Part shown: piece by piece, positions 27,931 to 61,819 of the stretch | Position numbering within the stretch: the stretch's first letter is position 1 | How the letters are laid out: the number at the start of each line of letters is the position of its first letter | Source: Dyadobacter fermentans DSM 18053 | Lineage (GTDB): Bacteria; Bacteroidota; Bacteroidia; Cytophagales; Spirosomataceae | Length of the DNA stretch: 64,000 nt | Assembly: GCF_000023125.1 (NCBI RefSeq) | Contig: NC_013037.1 | Coordinates: 1,054,001 to 1,118,000 of the forward strand | Direction: 5' to 3' | Program-made: the position numbers and the translations under genes | Notes under the pieces: generated by a model | The model's input: only the letters and a program-made list of their open reading frames with translations | Told to the model about the DNA's origin: nothing | Databases searched by the model: none

Positions 27931-27958
27931 TAACTTACATAGCTATGTGTGTAAGTTA
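27931..27958. promoter_or_regulatory. Inverted repeat, probable operator of the XRE gene
   Basis: TAACTTACA (27931-27939) and TGTAAGTTA (27950-27958) form a perfect nine-base inverted repeat, with an inner CATAGCTATG palindrome. It lies 61 bases before the XRE-type regulator, in the only gap before the defence genes. It fits an autoregulated operator. Confidence 0.6.
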
Positions 27959-28018
27959 TCCGATCACTTTCCGGCAGATTTATATAAATTGCCTTTTTTA
28001 ACCAAACACCCTTTCCAT

Positions 28019-28438
28019 ATGGCACATACTACATCTAATCCGAAGATCCACGAAGGCCGTAACTTAAAGAGATTCAGAGAAATGTTGTCTGTGAAGCAGG
28101 ACGCGCTGGCGTTTGAGCTCGGCGAAGATTGGAACCAGCAAAAAATCTCCCTGCTCGAACAAAAAGAAAAGATCGATTCCGATATTTTGGAGCAGGTGGC
28201 GGCGATTTTGAAAATTCCGGCTGAGGCGATTCGAAATTTTGATGAACAACAGGCAATCACTGTAATTTCGAGCACTTTCAACGACAATTCTCAGCTGGGC
28301 ACCCTGATCAACAACTACAACAATCCTATTGATGCGGTCTTAAAACTTCATGAAGAAAAGATGGCTCTCTATGAGCGGATGTTGAAGGAGAAGGATGAGA
28401 TGATGGAGCGTCTGGAACGGTTGATTACCAATCAGTGA
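28019..28438 (+). CDS. XRE-type helix-turn-helix regulator
   Basis: 139 residues from the ATG at 28019; the frame is open further upstream but that part overlaps the probable operator. Helix-turn-helix at about 12-65 (NLKRFREMLSVKQDALAFELG, then ISLLEQKEKI), followed by a linker and a C-terminal coiled coil (about 100-139). It stands 48 bases ahead of the Septu-like pair, same strand, so it is the likely regulator of the defence operon. Confidence 0.85.
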   Translation: MAHTTSNPKIHEGRNLKRFREMLSVKQDALAFELGEDWNQQKISLLEQKEKIDSDILEQVAAILKIPAEAIRNFDEQQAITVISSTFNDNSQLGTLINNYNNPIDAVLKLHEEKMALYERMLKEKDEMMERLERLITNQ

Positions 28439-28486
28439 TACTCGTGAGCACATAAAAACGAATTGAACTTCTCACATAACTCTAGC

Positions 28487-30220
28487 ATGATTGACATTAT
28501 CGAGCTAAACGAGCGTATTTTCCATCGTCTCGAACAATCCGACTTACTATACACATTCCGTAAAAGCAATTATGGAAGTCGACTGGAACAAGGTTATTGG
28601 TTTTACGGAAATGAAAATCAAATGGCTATTTCGTTTTGGTCAGGCATGGATTGGAAAAATCGAACTCCAAATATAGTATTTGTGATAACGCAAAACGGTA
28701 ATGTCTATTTGGAAATCAATGTTTCGGATTCAGATCGAAAAAGAGAATTTATCACTAACTATCTTGCTGATCCTTTGGAACTTGGATCTGATAGTCGGAA
28801 GTTCCGAAAATACTATGCTGACAATCTAGACCTTGATGAAGCTATATTCGAGTTTGAAAAATTTCTAAATAGTGACAAAATTATTATTGATGAAATTATC
28901 AATCGCGAGTCGAAAAGTTTCTTTCTTCCAAATGAAGAATCAATCAGCAACATTGATAGAAAAGAATTTCGCCAACGTCTACAAAACGTTCATAAATATA
29001 GACGTACAATAGTTGACATAGAACGCACCGAAAGTAAACAGGCACTTGAAAAGCCTACTAAATTACAATCTTTCAGAGTTTGGGATTCTGGCCCTATATC
29101 TTATACGGAACTAACGGACATACCAGCTGATAACAAATGGATATTTATTACAGGTGAAAACGGATCAGGAAAAACAAGTTTTCTTCGAGCAATTAGTACT
29201 GCCTTAGGATATCGGTCCTTAGATCGAAACGAACAAATGAGAAATCCCAACTTTCGATTTGAGGCAAGACTATTTAATGAAAGTAGCAATATAACTGAAA
29301 GCTTTACAAGAGAACATAATGAGGGGACCAAAAATCGCCGTCCAAAAGTTTCCGGGCTTTGTATGTACGGTCCATTTCGGTTGTTGAACAGCAGGAAGTT
29401 GTCAGAGGCAAAATTTAAATTACTCTACACAAAGAGTGGATCTTTCGAGTCTCTTTTTAGTGATAACTCTCCCTTGCTGGATATAGACAAGCAATTAGAT
29501 ATATGGAAGAAGGATAGAAAGTCCTTACATCTGCTAGAAAAGCGCCAATACCACATTAAAAATATTTTGACCGCAGTTGTCCCAAATCTCTATAATATTG
29601 ATTTATCTCTGTCGGAACTCGGAAAGCCAGTAGAATACCAGACCAGAAGAGATGACATCTCAAATCAATATTCAACGCCATGGGAAAATTTATCTTCCGG
29701 TACAAGAAGTGTCTTCTCACTAATTTTAGATATTTTGCTAAGACTTTACGATCAGCAACCGAAAGTCGTTGATCCGGCCGAATTGAAAGGTGTTGTTTTG
29801 ATAGATGAAATAGACCTTCACTTACATCCACTTGCGCAAAAAGAGCTAGTAGTAAATCTATCCAATGTTTTCAGTGATGTTCAATTTATTGTCACAACTC
29901 ATAGCCCTATTCCATTGTTGGGTGCACCTAGAAACAGTATGATATATGTTATGAGAAATTATGATGGCAATGTCTCGATTGAACGCATGGATGATAAGGT
30001 AATGTTCCGAAAAATTTTACCGAATGCCATTTTCACCTCTCCGATATTTGGATTTAGTGATCTTGTGCCGGATGCAAAAGGTAAGGACGAGATACCATAT
30101 CTCGACGATGACTTCAATCAAGTCAAACGACGAGAAAATTTGAACAGAGACATCAGAGAATATCTAAATAATGACAAACAAAAGGAATTATTGGCATTAT
30201 TTAATAAAGAAAAGCAATGA
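28487..30220 (+). CDS. ptuA: Septu-like AAA/ABC-type ATPase (PtuA-like)
   Basis: 577 residues from the ATG at 28487 (a TTG at 28463 is possible). About 200 N-terminal residues have no recognised domain (QGYWFYGNENQMAISFW). The ABC/SMC-type ATPase follows: Walker A TGENGSGKTS (about 220-230), signature LSSGTRS (about 402), Walker B GVVLIDEIDLHLHP (about 434-447) and the H-loop TTHSPIP. PtuA of Septu is such an ATPase paired with an HNH nuclease; that partner is the next gene, overlapping by four bases (ATGA). AT-rich codon use contrasts with the neighbours. Gene name is by analogy. Confidence 0.8.
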   Translation: MIDIIELNERIFHRLEQSDLLYTFRKSNYGSRLEQGYWFYGNENQMAISFWSGMDWKNRTPNIVFVITQNGNVYLEINVSDSDRKREFITNYLADPLELGSDSRKFRKYYADNLDLDEAIFEFEKFLNSDKIIIDEIINRESKSFFLPNEESISNIDRKEFRQRLQNVHKYRRTIVDIERTESKQALEKPTKLQSFRVWDSGPISYTELTDIPADNKWIFITGENGSGKTSFLRAISTALGYRSLDRNEQMRNPNFRFEARLFNESSNITESFTREHNEGTKNRRPKVSGLCMYGPFRLLNSRKLSEAKFKLLYTKSGSFESLFSDNSPLLDIDKQLDIWKKDRKSLHLLEKRQYHIKNILTAVVPNLYNIDLSLSELGKPVEYQTRRDDISNQYSTPWENLSSGTRSVFSLILDILLRLYDQQPKVVDPAELKGVVLIDEIDLHLHPLAQKELVVNLSNVFSDVQFIVTTHSPIPLLGAPRNSMIYVMRNYDGNVSIERMDDKVMFRKILPNAIFTSPIFGFSDLVPDAKGKDEIPYLDDDFNQVKRRENLNRDIREYLNNDKQKELLALFNKEKQ

Positions 30221-31158
30221 GAAATGTGACTCGTAGCTATCTAATAACTGATGCGCCCGACATCTTGCAAGCAGAGGATACTATTGCAGCTTCAACAATA
30301 ATTGCGAAAGCAGGTGATGCAAGCGGTATAAAAAGGTCGCTGTATAGCGATCCCTATACAGCTGGACCTGACGAAGGAAACCAATCCCGAGTCATAGACA
30401 AGCTTAACAATTGGTACTTTGGGAAATGTGCATACTGCGAGAGATTCTACAAGCTAGATGTCGAGCACTTCAGACCCAAGGGAGAAATTCGAGATGAAAA
30501 CAATGCGTTGACTTCGAATATAGGTTACTATTGGCTAGGATATGAATGGTCAAATCTGTTGCCTTCTTGTATCTCATGTAATAGAGATGGCGGAAAAAAC
30601 TCTAAGTTTCCCTACATAGCGGGGGGCAAAACAGTGACCGCACCAACTTTTAACGAAAGTGGTAATCTCGACAGAGAACATTGTATCGTAGACCACGAGT
30701 TACTCGTAGGAGAGCTCCCAGCTCTCCTTAATCCAGAAGTTGACTTGAATGTAGAAAGGTTTTTTGCCTTTGAAATTGATGACGATACGGAGGGAATTCG
30801 AATCAAAGGTGTTGATGCTGATCGTCGTGGTGAAATAACTGCAATTGTTTGTAAACTGAACAGATCTGAAATCAGGAGAGAGCGCCTACAACATGTAGTA
30901 ATGGAATTTGTAAATAGTGTTCATAACTCAGTAGCCGTACTAAAATCATCAGGAGATAACACTAACTTCAAAGATCAACTAAATTTACATATCCAGAAAA
31001 TTTATCGAGACTGCGACGAAATAAAGTTAAGCCACACATTGCTCAGAAAATATATTGTTGCTACGCCATTAAATTTTCAAAAAATCGTGATTCCCTTCAT
31101 CATACCAGAATTTAAGGCAATTTTATCAGAAGCCTTCACAAATTATGTTCATATCTAG
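30217..31158 (+). CDS. ptuB: HNH endonuclease (PtuB-like)
   Basis: 313 residues. CAYC (71-74), DVEHFRPKG (catalytic His about 84) and NLLPSCISCNR (Cys about 118 and 121, Asn 122) together form a zinc-supported HNH nuclease site. Overlaps the ATPase gene by four bases, the Septu arrangement, in which ATP binding controls cleavage of nucleic acid in phage-infected cells. The C-terminal half is unrecognised. No reverse transcriptase or ncRNA is nearby, so a retron of the Ec78 type is not indicated. Confidence 0.82.
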   Translation: MRNVTRSYLITDAPDILQAEDTIAASTIIAKAGDASGIKRSLYSDPYTAGPDEGNQSRVIDKLNNWYFGKCAYCERFYKLDVEHFRPKGEIRDENNALTSNIGYYWLGYEWSNLLPSCISCNRDGGKNSKFPYIAGGKTVTAPTFNESGNLDREHCIVDHELLVGELPALLNPEVDLNVERFFAFEIDDDTEGIRIKGVDADRRGEITAIVCKLNRSEIRRERLQHVVMEFVNSVHNSVAVLKSSGDNTNFKDQLNLHIQKIYRDCDEIKLSHTLLRKYIVATPLNFQKIVIPFIIPEFKAILSEAFTNYVHI

Positions 31159-31162
31159 TTCA

Positions 31163-33961
31163 CTAAGAATTATATTTGATTCCAGAATGGCAAATATGAT
31201 ATTGTAAACAATCTTTGCATACTTCCTTTTTATCGATCCTACTAAACGTTTGGCTTCTTATTACCGCGGCAGCATTCTGAATTCTGCTGTTTGTTTCTTC
31301 AAGATTATCCTCCCTTAGTGATTTGGGCGGCAATTGAGTGTTATACTCCAAATCATATATTTGAATGTAATCTGCTGTCTGGCCTGTAAGTTCTTTGTGC
31401 CCAAGAGCATAAAGATTTAATTGATCATAAGTTATTTTTTGGTTTTGAACATCTTGCTTGGATTTGAATTCAATTATAGTTGTCTCATACTTATCTTCGT
31501 ATAATTTTCTTCGTATTAGATCAATTTTTCCAGTTACTAAAATACCGTTATCCAAGTTCAGCTGTATCTCCTGCTCAACATATTCTATATTCTTGAAGGA
31601 ATCCTTATTCCTTTTGTAATACTCTGCCACCCTCTCTTTAACCAAATCTTTCATCTGTTCGAGAATGGTAGATTTGCCTAGATAGGGAAAGTGAGACTGC
31701 CCATTTGCAATATCCAACACGTCATCCTGAGACAACTCCTCTCCAAGCTTACTACGCTTGTGTATTTCCATCAAAGTGTTATGAAGCGATCTGCCGAAAC
31801 CCATGCGCTGGTCCAATGGATAGGAAAAATTATACATCGATACCAGTTTAAATCTGTACTGACATTCAAAGAAGTCTTTTAAAACGCTGAAATTTAGTGT
31901 AATCGACACTGCTTCCTTCTTAGGACTAGCTTCTATCTTCAAATTCTTCTCAAATGGCGGAAGATTCGTTACAATTGCGTCTGATTCTGCAAGCTCACTC
32001 ACAAATTGCGATGCTTTTCTATATAGCTGATTGTTTTCATCAGGTGCACGAGAAATAAATAAGAACTTTTGGGCGCGGGTAATGGCAACATAGAATAGCC
32101 GTCTTTCATCTTCCTCACTACCGATGTATCTCTGTTGATTCTTTATAAGAGCTGGGTTCAAGAAATGCCATTCGGTAAGCCCACCCACTTTCTTTGCAGG
32201 CATATAATTTTTGTTTAGTCCAGGAATAAAGACAACAGGAAACTCTAAGCCTTTTGCCTGATGGATGGTCATTATTTGGACGGCATTTGGTGCTCTGAAT
32301 GGATTGTTTAGCCAACCCTCAGGATAGTGATCTGCCGCAGCATATCGAATAAATTGCAAAAAAGAGAACAAATGATACGATGGAACTGACGAATTGAAAT
32401 AAATCTCTTCGAAATCGTTAATTACCTGACTAAATTTACCAAGATTATACATAACAATCTCAGCAATGTGCTGTGACTGAAATGCTTCCTCATTAATCTG
32501 AGATTTCTCTAAAAAATCCCAATATATTTGTTGTAAACTAAAAGCCCATATTGCTTTTCCATTTCTATCAACCTGCTTTTCTGGGAATTTACTATTTAAG
32601 TATTCGATTCCCAGCAGCAAATTATTTGAAGCAAAGTTACTATTCCGTATTTGAATCCACAATTGCAATAACTCTTCGGCCGAAATACTCTTATTAAGAT
32701 ATTGAAAGATTCCATATGCCGCTTTCACCTCGTTGACAGAAAACAATTGATTCACCCCCGCAGTTATGTATGGAATATCAAGCTTTTCCAACTCATTGAC
32801 AATCCCCGCTGTTTTACTCCAAGTTCGTAAAAGAATTGCAAAATCCGAATAATCCAATCCACGTTCTGGCTCGTTTGGGTCAGTTACATTCGATTTGAAT
32901 GGGGTTCCTCTCAAATCGACTATCATTTGTGCTATTGTACCATTCTCTTCAACTGTGGACACAAACTCATTATACAAAACATCGTTATTTTTACTAAATG
33001 TTTGCTTCTCTGCTGATATCATTGATTTTGGGATTCTATCGTTGCGCGAAATGATTGTTTCAGCTAATGCAGTGACGCCTTTCGAGCTCCGGAAATTTCT
33101 ATCTAATATTATCTCATGCGCCGGCTCATAGTCATGTAAAAAATCTTTGATAAAACTGCTGTTACTTCCACGCCATTGGTAAATATTTTGGTCGTCATCC
33201 CCCACGACGGTAATGACAGGTTTAGCAACCTGGTATAATTGATTGATTAGAATTCCCTGTATAGGATTGATATCTTGATATTCGTCAACAATCAAATACT
33301 TAAGATCCTTTTTGATTTTATTGTATAAATCCCTCTTTTCTTGGAGTTTATCAATTGCCTCCGTCATTATCATAGTAAAATCAAAATAGCAGTTTTCCTT
33401 CAATAGACCTTCGTACTTCTGTTTAGCTAATACAATATGTGAAGGCAACTCACCATCAAGTTCTGACTCTCTGATAACATTCATCAGCTGGATAAATCTT
33501 TTAGTATCGACAAAGATCTGCATAGTGATATCATCATTGCTCACCTTTGTCACATCGCTCATGCCGATTTTTTTATAGTTTTTATCTACAAAAAGTCTGA
33601 GCTTAATATCGTCTAGAACACTAAACTTTTGATACTGGTATTCATTCTCCTGCAGTGCTTTCAAACACCATCCATGTATAGTGCCAATATACATATCAGC
33701 AATTGCTTGAACGTTTTTTAATCGATCATCCTCTTTTATCGTTTTCAGGACCTTATTTCTAAGCTCGGCTGCCGCCTTTTCCGTATATGTAAAAGCAATT
33801 ATATTTCGAGGTTCAACCGCTGCATTATTTTCACCAAGCAGCAAATGAGTTATTTTGGCAGCTACGGTACTTGTTTTTCCTGAACCGGCACAGGCAATAA
33901 TCCGAAGATTTTTGTCATTCTCGCTGATGGCACGTTGCTGATCTGGAGTAAAATTTAGCAT
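31163..33961 (-). CDS. UvrD/AddA-like helicase with C-terminal Fe-S PD-(D/E)XK nuclease
   Basis: 932 residues. Superfamily 1 helicase: Walker A ACAGSGKTS (23-31), DEYQD Walker B, GDDDQNIYQWRGS, MTIHQAKGLEFPVVFI and VAITRAQKFLF. The last 230 residues are a RecB/Cas4-like nuclease: GKIDLIRR (Asp), IIEFKSK (Glu and Lys) and QLNLYALG. Four cysteines, C700 and C915/C918/C924, are placed as in the iron-sulfur nucleases AddB, Dna2 and Cas4. Helicase and nuclease are thus fused in one chain. It overlaps the upstream methyltransferase gene by seven bases, so the two are one unit. Its end is four bases from the Septu-like pair, convergent. Confidence 0.85.
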   Translation of the reverse strand: MLNFTPDQQRAISENDKNLRIIACAGSGKTSTVAAKITHLLLGENNAAVEPRNIIAFTYTEKAAAELRNKVLKTIKEDDRLKNVQAIADMYIGTIHGWCLKALQENEYQYQKFSVLDDIKLRLFVDKNYKKIGMSDVTKVSNDDITMQIFVDTKRFIQLMNVIRESELDGELPSHIVLAKQKYEGLLKENCYFDFTMIMTEAIDKLQEKRDLYNKIKKDLKYLIVDEYQDINPIQGILINQLYQVAKPVITVVGDDDQNIYQWRGSNSSFIKDFLHDYEPAHEIILDRNFRSSKGVTALAETIISRNDRIPKSMISAEKQTFSKNNDVLYNEFVSTVEENGTIAQMIVDLRGTPFKSNVTDPNEPERGLDYSDFAILLRTWSKTAGIVNELEKLDIPYITAGVNQLFSVNEVKAAYGIFQYLNKSISAEELLQLWIQIRNSNFASNNLLLGIEYLNSKFPEKQVDRNGKAIWAFSLQQIYWDFLEKSQINEEAFQSQHIAEIVMYNLGKFSQVINDFEEIYFNSSVPSYHLFSFLQFIRYAAADHYPEGWLNNPFRAPNAVQIMTIHQAKGLEFPVVFIPGLNKNYMPAKKVGGLTEWHFLNPALIKNQQRYIGSEEDERRLFYVAITRAQKFLFISRAPDENNQLYRKASQFVSELAESDAIVTNLPPFEKNLKIEASPKKEAVSITLNFSVLKDFFECQYRFKLVSMYNFSYPLDQRMGFGRSLHNTLMEIHKRSKLGEELSQDDVLDIANGQSHFPYLGKSTILEQMKDLVKERVAEYYKRNKDSFKNIEYVEQEIQLNLDNGILVTGKIDLIRRKLYEDKYETTIIEFKSKQDVQNQKITYDQLNLYALGHKELTGQTADYIQIYDLEYNTQLPPKSLREDNLEETNSRIQNAAAVIRSQTFSRIDKKEVCKDCLQYHICHSGIKYNS

Positions 33962-35193
33962 ACCTTCTGCATTATTACAATTGATTCAGTATTCATTAGA
34001 GGGTTTTTCTCGCCTTTCGTCCCATTTGCGCTATTTTGCCGCGGCATTCTTTTACTACTAATTTGCCGATTATAAGTAGTAACGTGCTTAAAGCCAACAT
34101 TTTCAAAGAAGTCCTTGGTAATCGTATCAGTTTGAAGAGTAACACCCCTTACATTTCTGTTACTTACAACATAACATGCGAAACCTCCAAGCTTTACTGT
34201 TTTCGACACATTTTTTATTGAATTTGAGTAGTCGTTGTAAAATGATACAACATCCAGTACTCGCTTTTGATCAATTTTGTTTATGTCGTTTATGTGCTCA
34301 TTTAAGATAGGTGACTTAAATTTTGATATTACTTTCGACTTTATGCCGCCCATAAGTTCATTATCTAGCGACCTGCCATGATCTCGGAGACCTAACCACT
34401 GGTTTGCCAATGCTGAAAACTGTCCGTATGCTACGGTAGTGGAAGAATCCCCATATGGTGGTGACGTAAGAACAATATCGACTGAACCTTCGGGGATGAT
34501 TTTTTTCGGGATTTTGAATATGCTGTTATCTCCTGTAATCAGTGGTTCTGCAAAATTAGCACGTGACTCCATGAAATCGCTAAGTCCATTCCTATTCCGT
34601 CCTAAAATTTTTTCGCAAATCGACAGTGAATCTGGCTTAAAGATTTTAATTCGCTCAGCACTCATCTTATACAGCTTAAATTCATTTTTTCGAGTCCATG
34701 AGCATTCTCTTATTGTTTGACTCAGGGCAACTTTGAAAAAGTTTTTAACTTGAACATTCTCAATATGATTAATATATTCTGAAATAATAGATAAGTCATG
34801 CTTCACCGCCCTGGAAAACCAAAAATCAATATTTTGAAATTCTGGGACAATGATAGAGTGCCGATTATTTCTATAACCAAATCTAAATGCAAAGAGATAA
34901 TCGTAAAAGTCCTTCAAATGAAGATCTAGGGTTTGTATCTCAATTTGCGTAGTCTTAACATTCGCAATCAACCTAGCTAGCGGATTCAGATCAAATCCGT
35001 ATGACTTTATTCCTCGGGTTGCAGCTTCTACAAGGGTTGTCCCGGTCCCGCAATAAGGGTCGAATAGCGAAAGGGCATTTTTTCCATATTCATCTAACAA
35101 AGCTGATGCAATCTGTGGAATCATCTTTGCCGGATATGTATGGAAGCAATGTGTCGAATATGCTGTGTTAGAATTCGTGAAATCGAAGTTCAT
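33955..35193 (-). CDS. DNA methyltransferase, N4-cytosine type
   Basis: 412 residues. SAM-binding motif I is FDPYCGTGTT (about 44-53), and the catalytic motif IV reads TSPPYGDS (about 244-251), the SPPY form typical of N4-cytosine methyltransferases; DLNPLARLIA is motif II. A target-recognition region separates the motifs. No restriction endonuclease of ordinary size is adjacent; the co-transcribed partner is the helicase-nuclease. The natural reading is that methylation marks self DNA against that enzyme, which is inference. Confidence 0.85.
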   Translation of the reverse strand: MNFDFTNSNTAYSTHCFHTYPAKMIPQIASALLDEYGKNALSLFDPYCGTGTTLVEAATRGIKSYGFDLNPLARLIANVKTTQIEIQTLDLHLKDFYDYLFAFRFGYRNNRHSIIVPEFQNIDFWFSRAVKHDLSIISEYINHIENVQVKNFFKVALSQTIRECSWTRKNEFKLYKMSAERIKIFKPDSLSICEKILGRNRNGLSDFMESRANFAEPLITGDNSIFKIPKKIIPEGSVDIVLTSPPYGDSSTTVAYGQFSALANQWLGLRDHGRSLDNELMGGIKSKVISKFKSPILNEHINDINKIDQKRVLDVVSFYNDYSNSIKNVSKTVKLGGFACYVVSNRNVRGVTLQTDTITKDFFENVGFKHVTTYNRQISSKRMPRQNSANGTKGEKNPLMNTESIVIMQKVC

Positions 35194-35827
35194 TAATATA
35201 ACCTATTACAATACGTTGTTAAAATTTACAAGATACAAATTTAGACCTAACAACGGGATTTTCGCCAACTAAACTTTTTAAGACACAGATATTCAGATAG
35301 AGCATCGAGATGCCTGAATTTGGGGACGCTGGCTGGTCTGCACTTTGGCTTTGTATATCAGCTCAATTTTTGCTACTTGATACAAGTTTGAAACATTGGC
35401 GAAGCTCCCCATAATTGCCTTGATTTTGAAGTGATTAAATGAATTATGCGCTTCATTCTGGCACTGGGCAAGCAAGTAATGGAAGCAACGGAATAAAGGA
35501 AGAGCTGTATGAATGCCGGGCTACGCGCCCCGGTGTTTATGCCGGATTTTCCACTGCGCCCGGCGTGGAACGCCCCGCAGCCCCGTGACTACCTTTGGGA
35601 CATCATTGATACAAGAAACTCTGTCAGGCATTCGAGCAATCCTCAAAACTTCGATAAGTATCTCCTAAATTGTAAAACATGTAACTAGCTGATTTTCAAA
35701 TATTCTGATCGGGTACGATTTGGGTACAACAAATAGTTGTACTTGAAGTGCCTTGATTTCTGATGTTGTTTTGTCATGTCCTTTCGAGAAAGGCAAAGGC
35801 ATTCTTCACTTCAAAACAGCAGGGCTT
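35194..35827. other. Gap between the defence island and the tra cluster
   Basis: No confident gene. A 59-codon ATG frame (35509-35688) exists but has no recognisable relative and no clear signal. The notable element is an inverted repeat at 35724-35742. The junction between the AT-rich defence genes and the conjugative element should lie here, but no direct repeat marks it. Confidence 0.5.
35724..35742. promoter_or_regulatory. Inverted repeat upstream of the tra cluster
   Basis: GTACAAC-AAATA-GTTGTAC, a perfect seven-base inverted repeat, lies 85 bases before the first small gene of the tra cluster. It has no T-run, so it is more like an operator than a terminator. Confidence 0.5.
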
Positions 35828-36748: not shown

Positions 36749-37090
36749 ATGGCGAACACCAGCGTTTACCAAATCAACAAGGGGATCAATACGTCCATTG
36801 AGTTCAAAGGTCTCAAAGCGCAGTACATCTGGTACATGGGTGGGGCGGCAATCGTTTTGTTTGCAATTTATACACTGCTGTATATCTGCGGGATCCGTTC
36901 TTACATCTGCGTGGGGATTGTGGTTTGCCTAGGCATTCCGATGATCATGGGGATTTACCATTTGAGCTCGGCATATGGAGAGCATGGCGTTACCAAGATG
37001 CTCGCGCGGCGAAATATTCCCAGATATGTAAAGTCTAATTCGAGGCGCATTTTTAAAACCAGCACTATTAATGGAAAAGTTACTGGATGA
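36749..37090 (+). CDS. traF: TraF-like conjugal protein (DUF4133)
   Basis: 113 residues. It opens with SVYQINKGINTSIEFKGLKA, the DUF4133 signature, then has two hydrophobic helices (YIWYMGGAAIVLFAIYTLLY and the next). Corresponds to VirB3-like inner-membrane proteins. The next gene starts 20 bases before its end. Confidence 0.88.
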   Translation: MANTSVYQINKGINTSIEFKGLKAQYIWYMGGAAIVLFAIYTLLYICGIRSYICVGIVVCLGIPMIMGIYHLSSAYGEHGVTKMLARRNIPRYVKSNSRRIFKTSTINGKVTG

Positions 37091-38645
37091 TCTGATCCCG
37101 ATCATGGATGTGGAACACGATTGCATCCTATCCAAGCAGGGAGACATCACGGTGGTATTTCAGGCAGATTTGCCTGAAATATTCACCCTCTCTGATCACG
37201 ACTATGAGGCTTTTCACCAAACGTGGGTGAAAGCGCTCCGCGTGCTGCCACCACATTCTGTATTCCATAAGCAGGACTGGTTTGTCGACAGCCGCTACGA
37301 GCCGGACTTTTCGCGGGAGGATAAAAGCTTCCTGTCAATGCAGAGCGAACGTCATTTCAATGAGCGACCATTTTTGGATCACACCTGCTGCATCTACATC
37401 ACCAAAAAGCCAGGGGACCGGAAGGTATCAAGCTCGCTGGCCTCAAACCTGATCCGCCCGGCTTTGATGCCGGAGGAAACGATGGATGAGAAGGTATTGC
37501 AGGAGCTGCATAGCTGCGTAGGTCAGTTCAGGCATATTATGGAAGACAGTGGATTTGTAAAGCTGCGAAGATTAAAGGATGAAGAGCTTTGGAGCAGCGG
37601 CGTGAAGGCCGGGATCGTTGAACAGTATTGTTACCTTTCCGGCAAAGGTGAGCCATTGATCAAGGATATGCAGTTTGATGAGAACATCCGGATCGGCAGC
37701 CAGCACTGTCAGCTCTACACGCTGGCAGACACGGAAGACTTGCCCGCCACCTGCGGTTCACAGAATAGCTTCGACAGGTATTCCACAGACAAGACAAAAT
37801 TTAGCATTGGGTATGCTTCGTCGCTCGGTCAACTTTTGAGTTGCAACCACATTTACAACCAGTACATTTTCATCGACGACGGGCCGAAAACACTCAGGAA
37901 GATGGAAACGAAAAGGTTGCGGCTGCAATCGCTGGCGGCTTATTCCCGCAAGAATGCGATTGCACTCGACGCAACGAACGCTTTTCTGAATGAAGCAATA
38001 TCAGGTCAACGAATGCCGGTGAGGGCGCATTTCAATTTGCTGGTCTGGACTGAAAAGAAGGAAGAGCTCAACGAGCTAAACAACAAAGTTTCGGCAGCAC
38101 TAGCCCAAATGGAAGCTGTTGCAAAAAAGGAGACAACCGGTGCACCACAGATTTATTGGGCAGGCATTCCCGGCAACGCGGCGGATTTCCCGATGAACGA
38201 AACTTTTGATTGTTTTGCCGAACAAGCTTCGTGCTTTCTAAACCTGGAAACGGGTTATCGTTCTTCGATTAGCCCGGTCGGATTACGCTTGGGCGATAGG
38301 CTGACTGGTAAGCCGGTACACGTTGATATCAGCGACGAACCGATTAGAAAGGGAATTTGCACGAACCGAAACAAATTCATTCTCGGTCCCTCTGGAAGTG
38401 GTAAGTCGTTTTTCACTAACCACATGGTTAGGAGCTATTATGAGCAGGGTTCCCATATTGTGCTGGTGGATGTGGGGCATTCCTATAAAGGTTTATGCGA
38501 CCTGGTCAAAGGCTACTATTTCACATATCAGGAAACGAATCCAATCAAGTTCAACCCCTTCCACATTGCCGAGGGCGACTCGCTGGATACTGAGAAAAAG
38601 GAAAGCATCAAGACGCTGATCCTGGCACTTTGGAAAGGACAATGA
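37071..38645 (+). CDS. traG: TraG (VirB4-like ATPase), N-terminal part of a frameshifted gene
   Basis: 524 codons, ending at TGA (38643-38645). The N-terminal domain and the Walker A motif GPSGSGKSFF (about 441-450) are present. The stop follows LWKG; the proper continuation, reading DNEVFKRSEYVALSNALTLY, is in another frame starting at about 38638. One base is gained or two are lost within 38634-38640. TraG powers pilus assembly and transfer; without the second half it would lack Walker B. A sequencing error is possible. Confidence 0.88.
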   Translation: MEKLLDDLIPIMDVEHDCILSKQGDITVVFQADLPEIFTLSDHDYEAFHQTWVKALRVLPPHSVFHKQDWFVDSRYEPDFSREDKSFLSMQSERHFNERPFLDHTCCIYITKKPGDRKVSSSLASNLIRPALMPEETMDEKVLQELHSCVGQFRHIMEDSGFVKLRRLKDEELWSSGVKAGIVEQYCYLSGKGEPLIKDMQFDENIRIGSQHCQLYTLADTEDLPATCGSQNSFDRYSTDKTKFSIGYASSLGQLLSCNHIYNQYIFIDDGPKTLRKMETKRLRLQSLAAYSRKNAIALDATNAFLNEAISGQRMPVRAHFNLLVWTEKKEELNELNNKVSAALAQMEAVAKKETTGAPQIYWAGIPGNAADFPMNETFDCFAEQASCFLNLETGYRSSISPVGLRLGDRLTGKPVHVDISDEPIRKGICTNRNKFILGPSGSGKSFFTNHMVRSYYEQGSHIVLVDVGHSYKGLCDLVKGYYFTYQETNPIKFNPFHIAEGDSLDTEKKESIKTLILALWKGQ

Positions 38646-39528
38646 GGTCTTTAAGCGGAGTGAATATGTGGCTTTGTCCAACGCGCTGACATTGTACTAC
38701 GCCTACATTGATGAATACGAGGAATTCGCCTGTTTCAATACCTTCTACGAATTCCTGCGGGATGAGTTCGTGCCGATTCTGGACGAGGACAAAGTCAAAG
38801 ACCGGGATTTTGATGTGGCTAACCTGCTGTATGTCTTGCGGCCTTATTACAAGGGAGGAGAGTTTGATTACCTGCTCAACGCGACCGAAAATATTGACTT
38901 GCTGAACGAGCGGTTCATTGTCTTCGAGCTGGATAATATCAAAGACCACCCAATCCTGTTTCCGGTCGTAACGATCATTATCATGGAGGTTTTCATCAGC
39001 AAAATGAGAAAGCTGAAAGGGATCAGGAAGATGATATTGATTGAAGAAGCCTGGAAGGCGATCGCGAAAGAAGGCATGGCGGATTACATCAAATACCTTT
39101 TCAAAACGGTCCGGAAATATTTGGGCGAGGCGATTGTAGTTACTCAGGAAGTAGAGGACATTATCAGTTCTCCGGTAGTCAAGCAGGCCATTATTAATAA
39201 CAGCGACTGCAAAATCCTACTCGACCAAAGCAAGTATCAAAACAAATTTGGACAGATACAAGAACTGCTCGGCCTGACCGAAAAAGAGAAAACGCTAATC
39301 CTTTCGGTCAACAAAGCCAACGATCCGCTCCGAAAGTACAAAGAGGTTTTTATCAGTTTGGGTGGAACCCTTTCGAGAGTGTATCGAACCGAGGTGAGCT
39401 TAGAAGAGTATCTGTGCTACACAACCGAAGAAAGCGAAAAAATCAAAGTGATTGAGTACGCGGCTCGTTTCGGCAGCATGCAAAAAGGGATTGCGGCATT
39501 GGCAGAGGAGATCAGATCAACATCATGA
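38638..39528 (+). CDS. traG: TraG, C-terminal part of a frameshifted gene
   Basis: About 296 codons that continue TraG without a start of their own; a GTG at 38668 is the first usable start. Contains Walker B KMILIEEAWK and the VTQEVEDI region, ending with the family's RVYRTEVSLEEYLCYTTEE-type stretch. The start of the next gene overlaps its end by four bases. Together with the preceding part it is one gene split by a frameshift. Confidence 0.85.
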   Translation, partial: DNEVFKRSEYVALSNALTLYYAYIDEYEEFACFNTFYEFLRDEFVPILDEDKVKDRDFDVANLLYVLRPYYKGGEFDYLLNATENIDLLNERFIVFELDNIKDHPILFPVVTIIIMEVFISKMRKLKGIRKMILIEEAWKAIAKEGMADYIKYLFKTVRKYLGEAIVVTQEVEDIISSPVVKQAIINNSDCKILLDQSKYQNKFGQIQELLGLTEKEKTLILSVNKANDPLRKYKEVFISLGGTLSRVYRTEVSLEEYLCYTTEESEKIKVIEYAARFGSMQKGIAALAEEIRSTS

Positions 39529-49490: not shown

Positions 49491-51392
49491 ATGATACAAA
49501 GAACTCGTAGCCACATTTTAGAACAGGAATCAAGATTTGAATTCCGTAAGGTCTTACCAGCAACATGGGTCTGCAGGGATAAACACGATGATTATGGTAT
49601 AGATTGTGAAGTGGAAATCTTCACCGAGTCAGGGCAGGCCACAGGTCTAGTCTTTTGGGTACAACTGAAAGCAACGGATTCGATTGATCCGTCTGTAACC
49701 AAAAAATTATATTTTGAGCGTGACAAGATTGGGCAATTTGTAAGCTATGATATTCCTGTCGTTATCGTCCGATACATCAGCGACAGCAAAGCGCTTTACT
49801 TTAGATGGGCCAAAGGGCTGGCAATCCCTCGTACAGAGAGCAAATCAATACCTGTATTTTTTTCCGATTCTTGCCAGTGGTCAGATGAAAGTCCTGCTGA
49901 CATAAGTTGCTATTTGCAGGCGCAAAACTGGGTAAAGCAAGGGAAAGTCAGTCTGCCAATACCTACTTTCATTGATAGAGCGCTGGATTTTGAGCCGATG
50001 GCGATCCCATACTCCAACGTCAACATTGTTAAAACGTGCCTTCGGAATTTAGGACGCCATATTAACATCCGCCGAGAACCACGGGAGGCTCTCTTGTTTA
50101 TTCGGATATCTGGAAATAAAATCTTCATGAGCCTCGCCGACATCCAATGTGCGGAGATGAAGGTCACCTTCGACAAAGTAGTTGGTGAGCATATCCCGGA
50201 GCTTAAAAAACATATCCTTGTTCTCTTCTGCTCCCTAATGTTTGACCTCGGGCGAAAAGAAATCGCCAATGATCTCATCATGAAAGAAAACCTACTGTCG
50301 GTCGTGTTCAAGAGCAAAAAATACCTCATTTCGATACTACCTGAGTTGCTGGAAAGCCAGCATTTCGGAGAAGTTTTGCAATCATTGGAAGAATATATAA
50401 GGAAAGATCCCGGCGGCAGTACGGATCTTCAGTTCGCTCTTGCATTATTGCTGACTGAAAGAAGAAATGAAATTGGCCAAGATAAAATCGCAGCAATCGG
50501 GAAATTCTACGAAAACGAACTGACCTTCCATGTGGGTCGTGGTGACAATATGGCCATTGCTCTTTCACATTACAACTTGGCGCAGCACTTTAAAGCGCAA
50601 GGCGAAACAGAATCAGCAATTATCCATTACTTGAAGGCAAGGAAACATGGCAAATTTTACAATAGTGCACACTATTTCTTTTCTGACTTTGCAGGACTGA
50701 TGTTCTCAATTGGCAAATTCCGATTTGCCGCGACCTTCTATAGTAAAGCTATTAATCTTGGCTCCCAAGATCCGGTCATGGTTGCGCTTCATGCAGACGC
50801 GTTGATGTATGCCGGATGTTACCAAGAAGCCAGAGATTGTTTTGATAAATATCTTCTTGCGAATCCAGACGCTGTGGACAACGAAGAGTGGCAACTGAAA
50901 TACACTCTATTAGCCACACACCTTGAGCACGGCTATCCGTCAGTGCAGAGTCGAAAACCTGCGGAAGCGGAGAGCATTGCTGGACAGGGAGCTGATGATA
51001 ATGCACTGGCATTAGATTTCTTGTGTCGGTTGGCCTGGTACGGTCGTGGTATTGAGTCGTCCAAAGCCGGAAATTTCGAGAAGGCATTCGCAGAGCTTGT
51101 TTTTGCTGCAGTTCTATACCGGGACGATCCATACGTATGGGCAGTATCCTTCGTGACTGGCCTGGATGCAAAAGCCGATAACAGCATTCTGACATTTTTG
51201 ATCCGAGTTGCCTATGAATATACGGAGCAAGATTTTATTCTGGAAGTCGGAAAGATTTTGGAAAAAGTTCAGCCGGAGAGCATCGACGCAGTGTTAGAAC
51301 TCATCGATTTGACGATTAAAGATGTTAAGCGAAAACAAATTAAAGTCCGGGTGTTTTCTGAGGATGGTGCGTTCGAGGAAATCCAGTTCTGA
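49491..51392 (+). CDS. DUF4365 nuclease-like domain fused to TPR-like repeats
   Basis: 633 residues. The N-terminal DUF4365 domain (about 1-145) has HDDYGIDCEVEIF and LVFWVQLKAT, where the Asp, the Glu and the Q-x-K suit a PD-(D/E)XK active site. The rest is helical with TPR-like repeats (about 330-470; MAIALSHYNLAQHFKAQG, AIIHYLKARKHGKF, FYSKAINLGSQDPVMVALHADAL). Such nuclease-sensor fusions are frequent in defence genes. It lies alone as cargo beside the integrase. Confidence 0.75.
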   Translation: MIQRTRSHILEQESRFEFRKVLPATWVCRDKHDDYGIDCEVEIFTESGQATGLVFWVQLKATDSIDPSVTKKLYFERDKIGQFVSYDIPVVIVRYISDSKALYFRWAKGLAIPRTESKSIPVFFSDSCQWSDESPADISCYLQAQNWVKQGKVSLPIPTFIDRALDFEPMAIPYSNVNIVKTCLRNLGRHINIRREPREALLFIRISGNKIFMSLADIQCAEMKVTFDKVVGEHIPELKKHILVLFCSLMFDLGRKEIANDLIMKENLLSVVFKSKKYLISILPELLESQHFGEVLQSLEEYIRKDPGGSTDLQFALALLLTERRNEIGQDKIAAIGKFYENELTFHVGRGDNMAIALSHYNLAQHFKAQGETESAIIHYLKARKHGKFYNSAHYFFSDFAGLMFSIGKFRFAATFYSKAINLGSQDPVMVALHADALMYAGCYQEARDCFDKYLLANPDAVDNEEWQLKYTLLATHLEHGYPSVQSRKPAEAESIAGQGADDNALALDFLCRLAWYGRGIESSKAGNFEKAFAELVFAAVLYRDDPYVWAVSFVTGLDAKADNSILTFLIRVAYEYTEQDFILEVGKILEKVQPESIDAVLELIDLTIKDVKRKQIKVRVFSEDGAFEEIQF

Positions 51393-51647: not shown

Positions 51648-52886
51648 CTACCGGCCTGCGCCGGTCTTGCTAGCCAATCTACCTTTCAAAGCTTGCATAT
51701 CTTCACTCACTTTCAAATCCAAGATTTTCGCATATATCTGTGTGGTTCGAATGTTCGTATGTCCAAGCATCTTGGAGACACTTTCTATCGGAACACCATT
51801 TTGCAAAGTTATTGTAGTTGCGAATGTATGCCTGGCAACATGCGACGTCAGGATCTTATCGATACCACAAACGACTGCGATCTCTTTAAGATAGTCGTTC
51901 ATTTTTTGATTGCTGGGTACCGGCAGTACAAGTCCGCGAGACTCGCAAGCAGGATCATCATTATATCGTGCTATTATCGCCAGCGCTTCGGGAAGAAGCG
52001 GGATGTGCGACTTAACGTTAGTCTTGGTGCGATGCGTGAAAATCCATTGATCGCCATCAATTCCTCGCGCGATATCGCTTCTCTCGAGGCTCTGAATATC
52101 TGAGTAAGCGAGTCCGGTGTAGCAACAGAACAGGAAAGTATCCCGAACCTGGGTGAGCCGATCACTCGCGAACTCCTTCTCGGAAAGGAGGCAAAGTTCC
52201 TCTTTTGTGAGGATTGCCTTATCAACTTTTTTGAACTTGCCCTTAAAATTTAAGTAGGGGTCAAGACTCATCCAGCCATTTCCAAGGCAGATATTCACAA
52301 TCTTGCGAAACATCTTCATGTGTTTGACCACGGCATTGTTTCCCATTTTGCGGACAGAACGGAGATGAAACTCGTAGTCGGCGATGAAGGCAAAATCAAT
52401 GCGACTAATATCGAAGTCGGTTGTATTGAAATTTGCTTTCAAAAAGCTTTCGGTGTGCCGTCTCAAAACCTCGTACCGTTTGAATGTTCCGATAGCGTAT
52501 TCCTGGCCAACTAGCGAGTGCATCCGCCGATTGTGCTCTACAATCACCGCCATCAACATCCGCTGTTTTGGACCGATTCCCAAGAATTTGTTTTTAATGC
52601 TTTCGGCTGTTGCAAGCTCGCCCTGGCGAATTAAGGAAGCATGTGCGTCCAGGAATTGTTGTTCAAGGTTGCCCAAATAAGCGTTGAGTGATTTCACGGC
52701 CTCCTTGTTACCTAGAACCCGACCTGCCCCCGTATTCCAGGTCTTAGGGTCGCACTCACGTCCGGTCGCAAGTTCTGACCTCTTACTCTCAACGGTAATC
52801 CTTAGGTAGATGGGCATAGGCCCGGTTTGATAATTTCTCGGCTTCTTCAAATAGAAAAGCAGACTCAGCTTTGTTTTCATAACCAT
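51648..52886 (-). CDS. int: Tyrosine recombinase/integrase of the conjugative element
   Basis: 412 residues: an N-terminal arm-binding region, a SAM-like core-binding domain (about 115-215), and the catalytic domain. HVARHTFAT (His, Arg), LGHTNI (His) and TTQIYAKI (Tyr nucleophile) are present. In the box that usually holds the first catalytic Arg the sequence is CYTGLAYSD, with Ala; this loss is known in IntDOT-type integrases. It is at the edge of the tra element, near a tRNA-like fragment, so it is the recombinase for this element. Confidence 0.93.
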   Translation of the reverse strand: MVMKTKLSLLFYLKKPRNYQTGPMPIYLRITVESKRSELATGRECDPKTWNTGAGRVLGNKEAVKSLNAYLGNLEQQFLDAHASLIRQGELATAESIKNKFLGIGPKQRMLMAVIVEHNRRMHSLVGQEYAIGTFKRYEVLRRHTESFLKANFNTTDFDISRIDFAFIADYEFHLRSVRKMGNNAVVKHMKMFRKIVNICLGNGWMSLDPYLNFKGKFKKVDKAILTKEELCLLSEKEFASDRLTQVRDTFLFCCYTGLAYSDIQSLERSDIARGIDGDQWIFTHRTKTNVKSHIPLLPEALAIIARYNDDPACESRGLVLPVPSNQKMNDYLKEIAVVCGIDKILTSHVARHTFATTITLQNGVPIESVSKMLGHTNIRTTQIYAKILDLKVSEDMQALKGRLASKTGAGR

Positions 52887-58832: not shown

Positions 58833-60035
58833 ATGAGCAGAACGGCTGACTATACTATTCAAGGCTTCATCTATCAGTTTACTGTAACATTACATGTGCT
58901 ACTGCAAGCAAACATCAACGACAGCATAGTAATCGAAGGACCAATCGAAGACATCGATGTTGCTACCCCGGCAGGTATTGAATCAACGCAATGCAAATAC
59001 CACGAGGAAAAAGAAAAGTTTACACTGTCATCAATCTACAAACCCGTATTGTTGATGATGGATCACTATTTCAATAAATCTTCACAAAAGACAAAATACA
59101 AGCTTTTTGCTCATTTCCCTAGTGAACCAGTCAACTCCAAAAGATCGCTCACAAAGGAAGAGCTTGCCAAGATTCTTTCGAGCCAGGATACTAGCTACAA
59201 AACAATCATAGAGAGTCTGGTGCACGTAAGTGATAAGAATACTTTTCTTTCACATTTCGAAATTGAATTTGGGCCATCTCTTGGGGATCTCCAGAAAAGC
59301 ACAATTGTGTTGCTATCGAAAGAAGGATTTAGCACTCAGGATGTTGAAGATTTATTTTACCCAAATGCATTACAATCGATCGCCAATCTTAGCATAAAGC
59401 ATCTTGAAAGTGAAAGGACGGTCACGAAAGACTCCTTTATAGATGCATTAAAAGCGAAGAAGAAAACGGCGATAAGCAGATGGACTAGGGAGTTGTCGAG
59501 CTATCAAAATCTCTTAAAAAGACGGCGAGACCAAATGCGCGACCTATTATCACGGAATCAGCGCATCAGATGTCTAGTGCTAGATTCTGACTTCGTTCTG
59601 GACTTTGAGTCAAAAATTGTGAATTTTATTGAGGATTTCGTAAAAAAGTACAACAACAAAATAAGACTCCATGAGTGTCCAATCTTCTGCATAGTTGGCG
59701 ACAATGCACTGATAAATACTATTTGGAGGCGATTAAATGAAAAGAATGTCATTGTCGAGCGAGGGCATGTAGCGGGAGAATTCAATGTAAAACATTTTCT
59801 TAGGAAGCCTTTGAAGGAGATCAAAGATGGGAGATCGGAGTTTAAAGTGAGAATTTGTTCCTACGCTAATGAGTTTGAACTTGTCGAGAAGCAGGAGCAA
59901 ATGGATGATGTTTATGTGATTTCCAAGCGGAATATATTTACATGGGAAGCACGACCTGATTTGAATATTGAATTAATTGAAACAAACGAAATAGCGGAAA
60001 TCAAATATCTATTTCAACTAGCCACGACCATATGA
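58833..60035 (+). CDS. DUF4297-like PD-(D/E)XK nuclease, partner of HerA
   Basis: 400 residues. The N-terminal nuclease-like domain shows TIQGFIYQFTVTLHVLLQ, then EDIDV (Asp about 40-42), E50 and QCKY (Gln53, Lys55), the Asp-Glu-x-Lys set of the PD-(D/E)XK fold used by DUF4297 and Cap4. The C-terminal part is unrecognised. The next gene, a HerA ATPase, overlaps by four bases. DUF4297-HerA pairs are reported anti-phage systems; both assemble into a nuclease-ATPase complex. Confidence 0.8.
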   Translation: MSRTADYTIQGFIYQFTVTLHVLLQANINDSIVIEGPIEDIDVATPAGIESTQCKYHEEKEKFTLSSIYKPVLLMMDHYFNKSSQKTKYKLFAHFPSEPVNSKRSLTKEELAKILSSQDTSYKTIIESLVHVSDKNTFLSHFEIEFGPSLGDLQKSTIVLLSKEGFSTQDVEDLFYPNALQSIANLSIKHLESERTVTKDSFIDALKAKKKTAISRWTRELSSYQNLLKRRRDQMRDLLSRNQRIRCLVLDSDFVLDFESKIVNFIEDFVKKYNNKIRLHECPIFCIVGDNALINTIWRRLNEKNVIVERGHVAGEFNVKHFLRKPLKEIKDGRSEFKVRICSYANEFELVEKQEQMDDVYVISKRNIFTWEARPDLNIELIETNEIAEIKYLFQLATTI

Positions 60036-61819
60036 AAGAGATTGGAAAAGTCCTTGACAGTTCGCCAAATAATATCACAATATCAGTCAAGGATTACAAA
60101 ACCTTTGAAGAAAACAAGAAGGAACTTCAAATTGGACGATATATACAGATATCAGATGGTAATTTGAACTTTGTGGTTGCACAGATTCAGAATATCAAAT
60201 CTACCGTAACCACGGATCCAGAATCAAACCTAAAATTTGTTCTGACCACGCAGCCAATTGGTTATATCGAGAGCGATATTTTCAAACGTGGATCATCTTT
60301 GATTCCAAGTCCAACTGAACCAGCCTTTATTGTTGACGATACCTCATTAGATATAATATTTAAGAGCCAAGCTCAATATAATTTTCCATTTGGAAAAATA
60401 ATTCATAGCAATATAGATTTTTTAATCGATGCAAATAAATTTTTCAGTAAACATATCGCATTGGTTGGGTCTACTGGATCTGGCAAGTCGTGTACAGTAG
60501 CCAAGATCTTGCAGGACGCAGTGGGTATATCTGGAAAGAAAAACCTATATTTTGAAAGAAAGCGAAATTCGCACGTAATAATTTTTGATATTCACTCAGA
60601 ATATCAATCTGCCTTTTCACTCGATTCAGCTGAGCAATTCAGCTTGAACGTACTGGATGTTGATACGCTTAAATTGCCCTATTGGCTAATGAATTCGTCA
60701 GAACTGGAAGCGCTTTTCATTGAAGGAAATGAAATGAATCATCACAACCAAATATCTCAGTTTAAGAAGGCAGTCATTTTAAATAAGGAAAAACACAATC
60801 CTGGGTTGAAGGAAAATATAACTTACGACACGCCAGTATTCTTTGATATTAATGAAGTGTTCAACTATATATCCAATATTAACTCATTAACCGTCTACAA
60901 AGAGGACGATAAATTGCTATTAGCATCATTGACAGCAAAAAACTTAGAGTATTCAGAAAAAAATCTCTGGAATCTTATCGAGTTTGAAGATTCTACCGCT
61001 ACCTCAAAACATGAACTATTGAAAGCTAAAGTGTCGCGGCATGGGGGATTTTATGGTGAATTTGATCGATTTATATCTAGGTTAGAAACTAAGCTAAAAG
61101 ACAAAAGACTTAAATTTATCCTCGATCCTCAAAAATTGGATAATTCGAGGTACATTACTTCTGACTTTGAAGGAATACTTCGACAATTTCTTGGATATCT
61201 CGACAAATGTAATGTTACAATTGTCGACCTGAGCGGAATTCCATTTGAGGTACTGAGCGTTTGCGTTAGTTTAATCTCTCGTCTGGTCTTTGATTTTGCT
61301 TTTCACTATTCAAAATTACAGCATAAGGATTCTAAGCACAATGACATCCCATTTCTCATTGTGTGTGAAGAAGCACATAATTATGTTCCAAAAAGCGGAG
61401 GTGCCGAATATAATGCGTCGAAAAAATCGCTTGAAAGAATCGCAAAAGAAGGAAGGAAATACGGACTGAGCTTAATGGTCGTAAGCCAGAGGCCATCTGA
61501 GGTTTCAGAAACTATCTTTTCCCAATGCAACAACTTTATTTCCCTCAGACTTACCAATGTGAATGATCAGAACTATGTCAAAGCTCTGATGCCAGAGAAC
61601 TCAAATTCAGTGTCAGATATTCTCCCAAATTTAGGGCAAGGGGAGTGCTTAATTGTCGGGGATGCTACTTTGATTCCATCCGTTGTTAAACTCGAAAAGC
61701 CGAATCCTGAGCCAAAATCTCAATCTATTAATTTTCAAGATGAGTGGAAAGAAGACTGGAGAGACATTGATTTCACCGATATAATCAAAAGATGGAAAAG
61801 AGAGGTTGCCCAAAAGTGA
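60032..61819 (+). CDS. HerA-like DNA translocase/ATPase
   Basis: 595 residues. N-terminal HAS-barrel-like region (about 1-110), then the FtsK-HerA ATPase: Walker A VGSTGSGKSC (about 143-152), Walker B FLIVCEEAHNYVP (about 438-450), and the arginine-finger/closing part ISQR-like SLMVVSQRPSEVSETIFSQC and LGQGECLIVG. HerA proteins form hexameric motors that pair with nucleases. Here it is translationally coupled to the DUF4297-like gene, so the two are one system. Confidence 0.9.
   Translation: MKEIGKVLDSSPNNITISVKDYKTFEENKKELQIGRYIQISDGNLNFVVAQIQNIKSTVTTDPESNLKFVLTTQPIGYIESDIFKRGSSLIPSPTEPAFIVDDTSLDIIFKSQAQYNFPFGKIIHSNIDFLIDANKFFSKHIALVGSTGSGKSCTVAKILQDAVGISGKKNLYFERKRNSHVIIFDIHSEYQSAFSLDSAEQFSLNVLDVDTLKLPYWLMNSSELEALFIEGNEMNHHNQISQFKKAVILNKEKHNPGLKENITYDTPVFFDINEVFNYISNINSLTVYKEDDKLLLASLTAKNLEYSEKNLWNLIEFEDSTATSKHELLKAKVSRHGGFYGEFDRFISRLETKLKDKRLKFILDPQKLDNSRYITSDFEGILRQFLGYLDKCNVTIVDLSGIPFEVLSVCVSLISRLVFDFAFHYSKLQHKDSKHNDIPFLIVCEEAHNYVPKSGGAEYNASKKSLERIAKEGRKYGLSLMVVSQRPSEVSETIFSQCNNFISLRLTNVNDQNYVKALMPENSNSVSDILPNLGQGECLIVGDATLIPSVVKLEKPNPEPKSQSINFQDEWKEDWRDIDFTDIIKRWKREVAQK

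Follow-up and report, generated by a model that had tools for sequence, protein, structure and literature searches.

A methyltransferase gene overlaps a helicase-nuclease gene

We analyzed a stretch of 64,000 nucleotides from the genome of Dyadobacter fermentans DSM 18053 (contig NC_013037.1, positions 1,054,001 to 1,118,000), hereafter the window, and focused on two genes of its reverse strand, which encode a DNA methyltransferase (MTase) and a UvrD-like helicase fused to a nuclease. The two open reading frames (ORFs) overlap by 7 bp (33955-33961), suggesting that they are co-transcribed. A preliminary description of this stretch had reported the two overlapping ORFs, an SPPY motif, four cysteines, the fusion of a UvrD-type helicase to a RecB/Cas4-type nuclease and the lack of a restriction subunit alongside. 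The coordinates and residue positions proved exact, Pfam recovered the fusion, and no gene next to the pair in the window was identified as a restriction endonuclease. The pair presents the following features:

33955 to 35193, minus strand: MTase gene, first of the pair (412 aa), MvaI/BcnI-type MTase family, probably N4-cytosine (m4C) type (ORF, Pfam, PADLOC, tree)
35038 to 35061, minus strand: S-adenosylmethionine-binding motif DPYCGTGT of the MTase, residues 45-52
34453 to 34464, minus strand: catalytic motif SPPY of the MTase, residues 244-247
31163 to 33961, minus strand: helicase-nuclease gene, second of the pair (932 aa), UvrD-like superfamily 1 (SF1) helicase with a RecB/Cas4-type PD-(D/E)XK nuclease (ORF, Pfam, structure comparison)
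32042 to 33949, minus strand: SF1A helicase core, residues 5-640 approximately, with Walker A GSGKT at 26 and DEYQD at 226
31187 to 31897, minus strand: C-terminal PD-(D/E)XK nuclease, residues 689-925, with H734, D814, E831-x-K833, Q847-x3-Y851 and cysteines 700, 915, 918 and 924
35194 to 35752, no strand: gap of about 560 bp 5' of the MTase gene, without an ORF of at least 80 aa, probable promoter region (ORF list)

No restriction-enzyme gene was seen in the gap 5' of the MTase gene, and no Res or Vsr gene was found among the neighbouring ORFs tested in the window. The pair is present in a single copy in this genome of 6.97 Mb, with one extra weak and partial match (E = 2e-7).

The MTase matches the Pfam families UPF0020 and N6_N4_Mtase, and the PADLOC model MTase_II (PDLC03322) over residues 2-410 with 387 bits. 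Residues D45, P46, C48, G49, G51 and T52 are invariant in the MTase alignment and in all 35 MTases of the paired loci described below, which also share the motifs DPxCGxGT and SPPYGDS at the positions tested (35/35). The SPPY motif and the annotations of the source records suggest that this is probably an m4C enzyme. Foldseek returned general class I MTase folds only (TMq ≤0.35).

The helicase-nuclease matches UvrD-helicase (PF00580, 168 bits), UvrD_C and PDDEXK_1 (PF12705, 61 bits for a cut-off of 22), and its match to Cas_Cas4 is below threshold (20.1 versus 22.7 bits). C700, C915, C918 and C924 are invariant in a 32-row helicase alignment that includes the window, and these four residues suggest that the nuclease may hold an iron-sulfur cluster. 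Over the 35 paired loci, conservation extends to all helicase and nuclease residues tested, except that two of the 35 present D at position 831 and that one row has gaps at Y851 and at the three C-terminal cysteines. Locus L184 was omitted from a single, separate conservation count. The closest solved structures are AddA, RecB, UvrD and PcrA; this list covers mainly residues 1-670, and the fold of the nuclease domain has no independent match. NCBIfam matches to AddA, RecB and PcrA are far below cut-off (234.5 versus 911.2 bits for PcrA). PADLOC gave matches to GajB (up to 184 bits) and RTasHel (206 bits). The latter identity was rejected: the match covers the helicase core only. The GajB matches look like generic SF1 similarity, because they are about as strong in relatives of the helicase that are linked to restriction-modification (RM) genes. 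Gabija was also rejected, as no GajA was identified beside the helicase, whose immediate neighbours are the MTase and the PtuA/PtuB genes of a Septu system.

The pair recurs but is sporadically distributed

We compared the source contigs of the best 120 matches of the helicase with those of the best 120 matches of the MTase, 119 of which have a contig, using the size of the longest contig of each match. Contigs of exactly equal size were common to both lists in 33 cases, window included, whereas sizes shifted by 1-50 either way gave a chance expectation of 0.41 on average and of 2 at most. One of these common contigs is just 4461 bp long, and both genes must therefore lie close together on it. 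Among 395 genomes of a class sample, the helicase was found at E ≤ 1e-120 in only three: that of D. fermentans and two others (G618 and G619). In both of them the MTase gene lies directly upstream of the helicase gene in the same order, and the MTases are 58-61% identical to that of the window. The spacing of the two genes is a 2 bp gap in G618, a 4 bp overlap in G619 and a 7 bp overlap in the window. The three loci share no third gene: the window has no such gene, G618 has one for a membrane-type protein and G619 one for an HNH enzyme. Over 35 pairs, the distances among MTases correlate with those among helicases (Mantel r = 0.34; none of 5000 permutations was as high, with a maximum of 0.28), which suggests a shared history but also some reshuffling.

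Outside these loci the helicase is rare. It was found in one of 222 genomes of the family, with the four best candidates scored per genome, in one of 390 genomes of an order sample and, at 1e-100, in one of 395 genomes of a phylum sample. In the orders of G618 and G619 it was found in just those genomes (1/42 and 1/45, respectively). The phylum, class and order samples overlap and were scored on the two best candidates per genome, so that absences in these samples, as in the family, are soft. None of 72 genomes of another genus contained it (0/72), and phage records gave no match at E ≤ 1e-40. Neither a viral scan with a single helicase protein nor a DNA pattern scan returned close family members, and a contig scan with the pattern VVGDDDQ was dominated by generic UvrD genes, with no close family members among the matches listed. 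The pair is thus an accessory one, sporadically distributed.

In G618, a protein of 326 aa, which by eye seems to have a membrane segment, is encoded 1 bp downstream of the helicase gene (L185 5519-6499, minus strand); neither Pfam nor PADLOC gave a match for it, and the loci compared contain no homologue. The ORFs tested beside the pair in G618 and G619, a subset, include matches to RtcB, PKD and HNH. The HNH gene of G619 (L186 5567-6649, minus strand) is divergent from the MTase gene of the pair and matches an undescribed HNH model (250 bits) and a type II restriction enzyme HNH model (92 bits) in PADLOC. We considered whether this HNH endonuclease gene regularly accompanies the pair, and rejected the idea: its family has no contig size in common with the best 120 helicase matches, and two in common with the best 120 MTase matches, one of which is G619 itself. 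A homologue of the G619 enzyme was also observed near a distant MTase in another locus (L023).

Most relatives of the MTase examined adjoin type II restriction enzymes

Relatives of the MTase were found at E ≤ 1e-30 in 19 of the 395 genomes of the phylum sample, own genome included. We examined the neighbourhoods of 11 genome regions (of 22 places, window included) and of 7 of the 17 plasmid matches. In 14 of these 18 loci, the MTase relative is next to a type II restriction enzyme. MvaI/BcnI-type enzymes account for 6 of the 11 genome loci (G228, G096, G314, G160, G279 and G200), at 22-616 bp from the MTase gene in the five measured, and for all seven plasmid loci, where one enzyme is annotated as hypothetical and another is in two pieces. 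The MTase of the window is 32-47% identical to the MTases adjoining these enzymes. Among the remaining genome loci, G364 presents a weak HNH match within about 2 kb of the MTase relative. No partner was named in three of the 11. The restriction-enzyme queries, the only ones applied to the MTase loci L193, L195 and L197, gave no partner there. No relative of the helicase was present at E ≤ 1e-8 in the 18 loci. The Pfam family of the MvaI/BcnI enzymes (PF15515) was absent from the whole genomes of D. fermentans, G618, G619 and G390; the same search was positive in 5/5 genomes known to have the family, and the 14 built-in control genomes of the tool gave 0.

Two side observations concern individual loci. 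The protein annotated as hypothetical next to the MTase of a Geobacillus plasmid (L180 6337-7047, minus strand) is an MvaI/BcnI-type restriction enzyme. In G390, an assembly with 13% contamination, the gene of a BsaWI-type enzyme (L187 8686-9348, plus strand) immediately precedes that of an MTase with 51% identity to the one in the window, which adds another type of partner for this MTase family.

We then reconstructed a tree of 56 MTases (quick search, no bootstrap, midpoint root). The 35 helicase-linked MTases lie on one side of a single branch (SH-aLRT 99), among MvaI/BcnI- and BsaWI-linked ones, although the helicase-linked rows were drawn from the matches nearest to the window, which favours clustering. 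These rows comprise 33 of the best 120 matches used as such, window included, and two added through the loci of G618 (L185) and G619 (L186), the other 85 being left out of the tree; with the exception of these two and the window, the rows (32 of 35) were labelled helicase-linked on the basis of a common contig size. One exchange of partner would be the simplest history of these helicase-linked MTases. Because they nest among enzyme-linked ones and because no MvaI/BcnI enzyme was found in the three genomes with the pair, the helicase-nuclease would thus seem to occupy the place that the restriction enzyme holds in an MvaI/BcnI-type system.

The helicase-nuclease resembles the UvrD-Cas4 family

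In the accessible parts of Hudaiberdiev et al. (2017; PMC5704561), UvrD helicases fused to a Cas4-like nuclease (pfam12705) are described as a monophyletic group. Such fusions are located chiefly beside the type III genes Mod and Res and secondly beside Dcm and Vsr, and are also found in stand-alone and non-conserved contexts; they are predicted to have an ancillary role in several defence systems, aiding restriction (PMC5704561). The protein of the window presents the defining architecture, an SF1 helicase of the UvrD type with a C-terminal pfam12705 nuclease. It also groups with members of Mod/Res and Dcm/Vsr loci in our 70-row helicase tree, which is not a reproduction of the published one (PMC5704561). 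It adjoins neither Mod/Res nor Dcm/Vsr, its partner being an SPPY MTase of the MTase_II family, which is not decisive for membership.

The relatives of the helicase are frequently linked to RM genes. All three plasmid matches (3/3) were examined: the Priestia helicase (L175, 36% identity) lies beside Dcm, Vsr and an MspI-type enzyme, the Vibrio one (L177, 28%) beside Dcm and an MvaI/BcnI-type enzyme, and the gene of the Athalassotoga one (L176, 28%) overlaps a type III-like MTase gene followed by a DEAD/DEAH helicase gene (Mod and Res). We also examined the ORFs of 7 of the 59 helicase loci of a viral collection (L198-L202, L205 and L209), five of which fit the contexts of the UvrD-Cas4 family: L198 and L205 (Mod and Res), L201 (Vsr and a C5 MTase), L202 (a C5 MTase) and L200 (a C5 MTase and a restriction endonuclease), the last being almost identical to the Vibrio plasmid locus. 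No MTase was found among the neighbours tested in L199 (two ORFs) and L209 (an integrase and an SspD-like protein), evidence against an association with RM genes in every case. In the 70-row tree, the clade of the window is next to L175 and L198, then to L177 and L200, then to a group with L176, which also includes the Actinomycetota rows L026, L027, L039 and L087; L205 falls in a more distant clade. Based on domain content and tree position, the helicase-nuclease is best seen as a member of the UvrD-Cas4 family in a context that the accessible parts of PMC5704561 do not name. Our literature search, with most subscription papers outside its reach, found no paper describing an MTase paired with a UvrD-Cas4 protein, and none settling the function of helicase-nuclease fusions beside RM genes.

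The pair lies in the cargo of a conjugative element

The pair is situated between a Septu system and conjugation genes. Other features of the window are the following:

28463 to 30220, plus strand: Septu PtuA, convergent with the pair and not part of it (PADLOC, 947 bits)
30217 to 31158, plus strand: Septu PtuB, convergent with the pair and not part of it (PADLOC, 390 bits)
51648 to 52886: tyrosine integrase
58833 to 61819, plus strand: overlapping DUF4297 (135 bits) and HerA (577 bits) genes, a known defence system of the DUF4297-HerA type

The Septu operon (28463-31158), with a PtuA ATPase and a PtuB HNH protein in tandem, is a separate unit that ends 4 bp from the stop of the helicase gene. 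Together with DUF4297-HerA, the window contains two defence systems besides the pair. Beyond the gap 5' of the MTase, the window carries transfer genes (TraG P-loop and CtnDOT TraJ) typical of a conjugative element of Bacteroidota. The GC-content of the Septu, helicase and MTase genes is 0.37-0.38 versus 0.43-0.48 around them, as expected for acquired cargo.

Several further observations concern the element. The gene upstream of PtuA (27947-28438) has a weak PADLOC match to HTH_VI. A protein with a DUF4365 domain and TPR repeats is encoded beside the integrase (49491-51392, plus strand) and could be a further defence gene. The gene for the TraG-like conjugation ATPase (37071-39528, plus strand) appears interrupted: its first ORF covers just 119 of 413 profile positions before stopping, the following ORF is in a different frame, and no frame is open throughout. 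The element may be defective for transfer, or the interruption may be an assembly error.

A candidate restriction-modification-like cassette

With some reserve, we lean towards the view that the pair is a two-gene RM-like defence cassette carried as cargo by an integrative conjugative element (ICE) of Bacteroidota, a reading drawn entirely from sequence. The MTase would mark the DNA of the host, and of the element, at a short site that its kinship suggests is probably related to CCNGG. The recognition sites of MvaI, BcnI and BsaWI are known, and those of MvaI and BcnI lie behind this guess. The UvrD-Cas4 protein would replace the restriction enzyme: it would load on DNA lacking the mark, or on the ends, gaps or forks of such DNA, unwind it and degrade it with its RecB-type nuclease. 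The reading of the methyl mark is the weakest step of the proposal. In type III systems, Mod recruits Res; the MTase might likewise recruit the helicase to unmarked sites, or the helicase might start at ends or forks made by another enzyme. More tentatively, the cassette may be an RM system free of restriction enzyme, in which an MvaI/BcnI-type MTase once exchanged its endonuclease for a UvrD-Cas4 protein. Self-marking and target recognition would then both fall to the MTase, and unmarked DNA would be destroyed by the motor-nuclease alone, processively rather than site-specifically. Such self-sufficiency is favoured by the fact that no restriction enzyme was found in the locus of the window, by the lack of a common third gene in the three loci, and by the absence of an MvaI/BcnI enzyme in trans, the only enzyme family searched genome-wide.

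Several results weigh against this reading. Among the best 120 helicase matches, 87 are without a matched MTase among the matches listed, and the modest Mantel correlation indicates that partners have probably been reshuffled. Loading by UvrD-type enzymes requires single strands or ends, and we saw no target-recognition domain in the helicase. Because G619 encodes an HNH enzyme beside the pair, a separate cutter may act together with the two proteins in that genome, and G618 has, near its pair, an ORF of 391 aa with a sub-threshold PDDEXK match (YhcG_C, 16.8 versus 32.5 bits). Finally, the relatives of the fusion often accompany complete RM systems, which suggests an ancillary role. Under that explanation, which we consider rather unlikely, a non-discriminating helicase-nuclease would clear fragments cut by an HNH enzyme, an unlinked endonuclease or the adjacent Septu nuclease, and the MTase would be all that remains of an RM system, its protective half. 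The UvrD/RecB/AddA-like fold suits this role, which is also the one proposed by Hudaiberdiev et al. (2017; accessible parts of PMC5704561). However, none of the G618 ORFs tested matched a restriction enzyme above cut-off, no such enzyme was found next to the pair in the window, and the two genes keep their order and tight spacing in all three loci.

Two other explanations fare less well. In the first, the MTase would provide an anti-restriction mark that shields the incoming conjugative element, and the helicase-nuclease would have an unrelated role in the repair or replication of that element. Mobile elements commonly carry orphan MTases, and the pair does lie in ICE cargo with TraG and TraJ, but it recurs elsewhere with no transfer gene among the subset of neighbouring ORFs tested in G618 and G619, and the nearest kin of the helicase are RM-linked; we regard this explanation as improbable. 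A housekeeping repair unit of the AddAB/RecBCD type, placed by chance beside an MTase, would agree with the closest solved structures. This possibility is largely refuted by the distribution of the helicase in the family and order samples, by the lack of an AddA or AddB partner beside it and by the NCBIfam scores, and we consider it extremely improbable.

The preliminary description had named a housekeeping AddAB unit as the competing possibility and had called for checks of co-occurrence and of a defence-island setting. The genes do recur together (33 common contigs; adjoining in G618 and G619), and the setting holds with DUF4297-HerA and with the Septu system, which had gone unmentioned. Its proposal of a minimal restriction-like system stands in part: the restriction-like nature agrees with the kin of both proteins, whereas the HNH gene of G619 makes its minimality uncertain. 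Its view that the kind of pairing was unfamiliar did not survive, since UvrD-Cas4 fusions beside MTases have been described since 2017 (accessible parts of PMC5704561). What is new is the recurrent two-gene unit, with a UvrD-Cas4 protein apparently standing where an MvaI/BcnI-type system has its restriction enzyme. With its context reduced to two genes, and with sister MTases that retain a restriction enzyme, the cassette offers a clean comparison for whether UvrD-Cas4 itself acts on unmethylated DNA. It would also show that type II RM modules can become motor-driven by exchange of partners.

Comparison with known systems

Type-1 BREX-related systems (accessible parts of PMC12839542) likewise combine an MTase with a helicase-nuclease effector, but they use a DUF499 ATPase and a Swi2/Snf2 helicase, neither of which is among the neighbouring ORFs tested in the window. 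Gabija shares a UvrD-like helicase, as seen in the GajB matches, whereas the helicase of the window has an additional C-terminal nuclease. Type III RM and the CglI/NgoAVII systems (accessible parts of PMC4267653) resemble the pair in associating an MTase, an ATP-driven motor and a nuclease. In contrast to type III, the window presents an SF1 UvrD motor and a RecB/Cas4 nuclease in one chain rather than a superfamily 2 Res, and the best PADLOC matches of its MTase are to MTase_II, not MTase_III; in contrast to CglI/NgoAVII, where R and N are separate proteins (PMC4267653, same parts), the functions are joined in one chain.

The closest comparisons are with the two families that the pair brings together. 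The MTase belongs to the same family as those of MvaI/BcnI type II RM systems and is placed among MTases adjoining such enzymes, but the cognate enzyme was not found in the locus or the genome (PF15515) and a helicase-nuclease is found in its place. Like the UvrD-Cas4 proteins of PMC5704561, as far as its accessible parts describe them, the second protein combines a UvrD SF1 helicase with a pfam12705 Cas4-like nuclease, adjoins a DNA MTase and is a predicted defence component. The contexts named there are Mod/Res and Dcm/Vsr, whereas the partner in the window is an MvaI/BcnI-type SPPY MTase in a recurrent two-gene unit.

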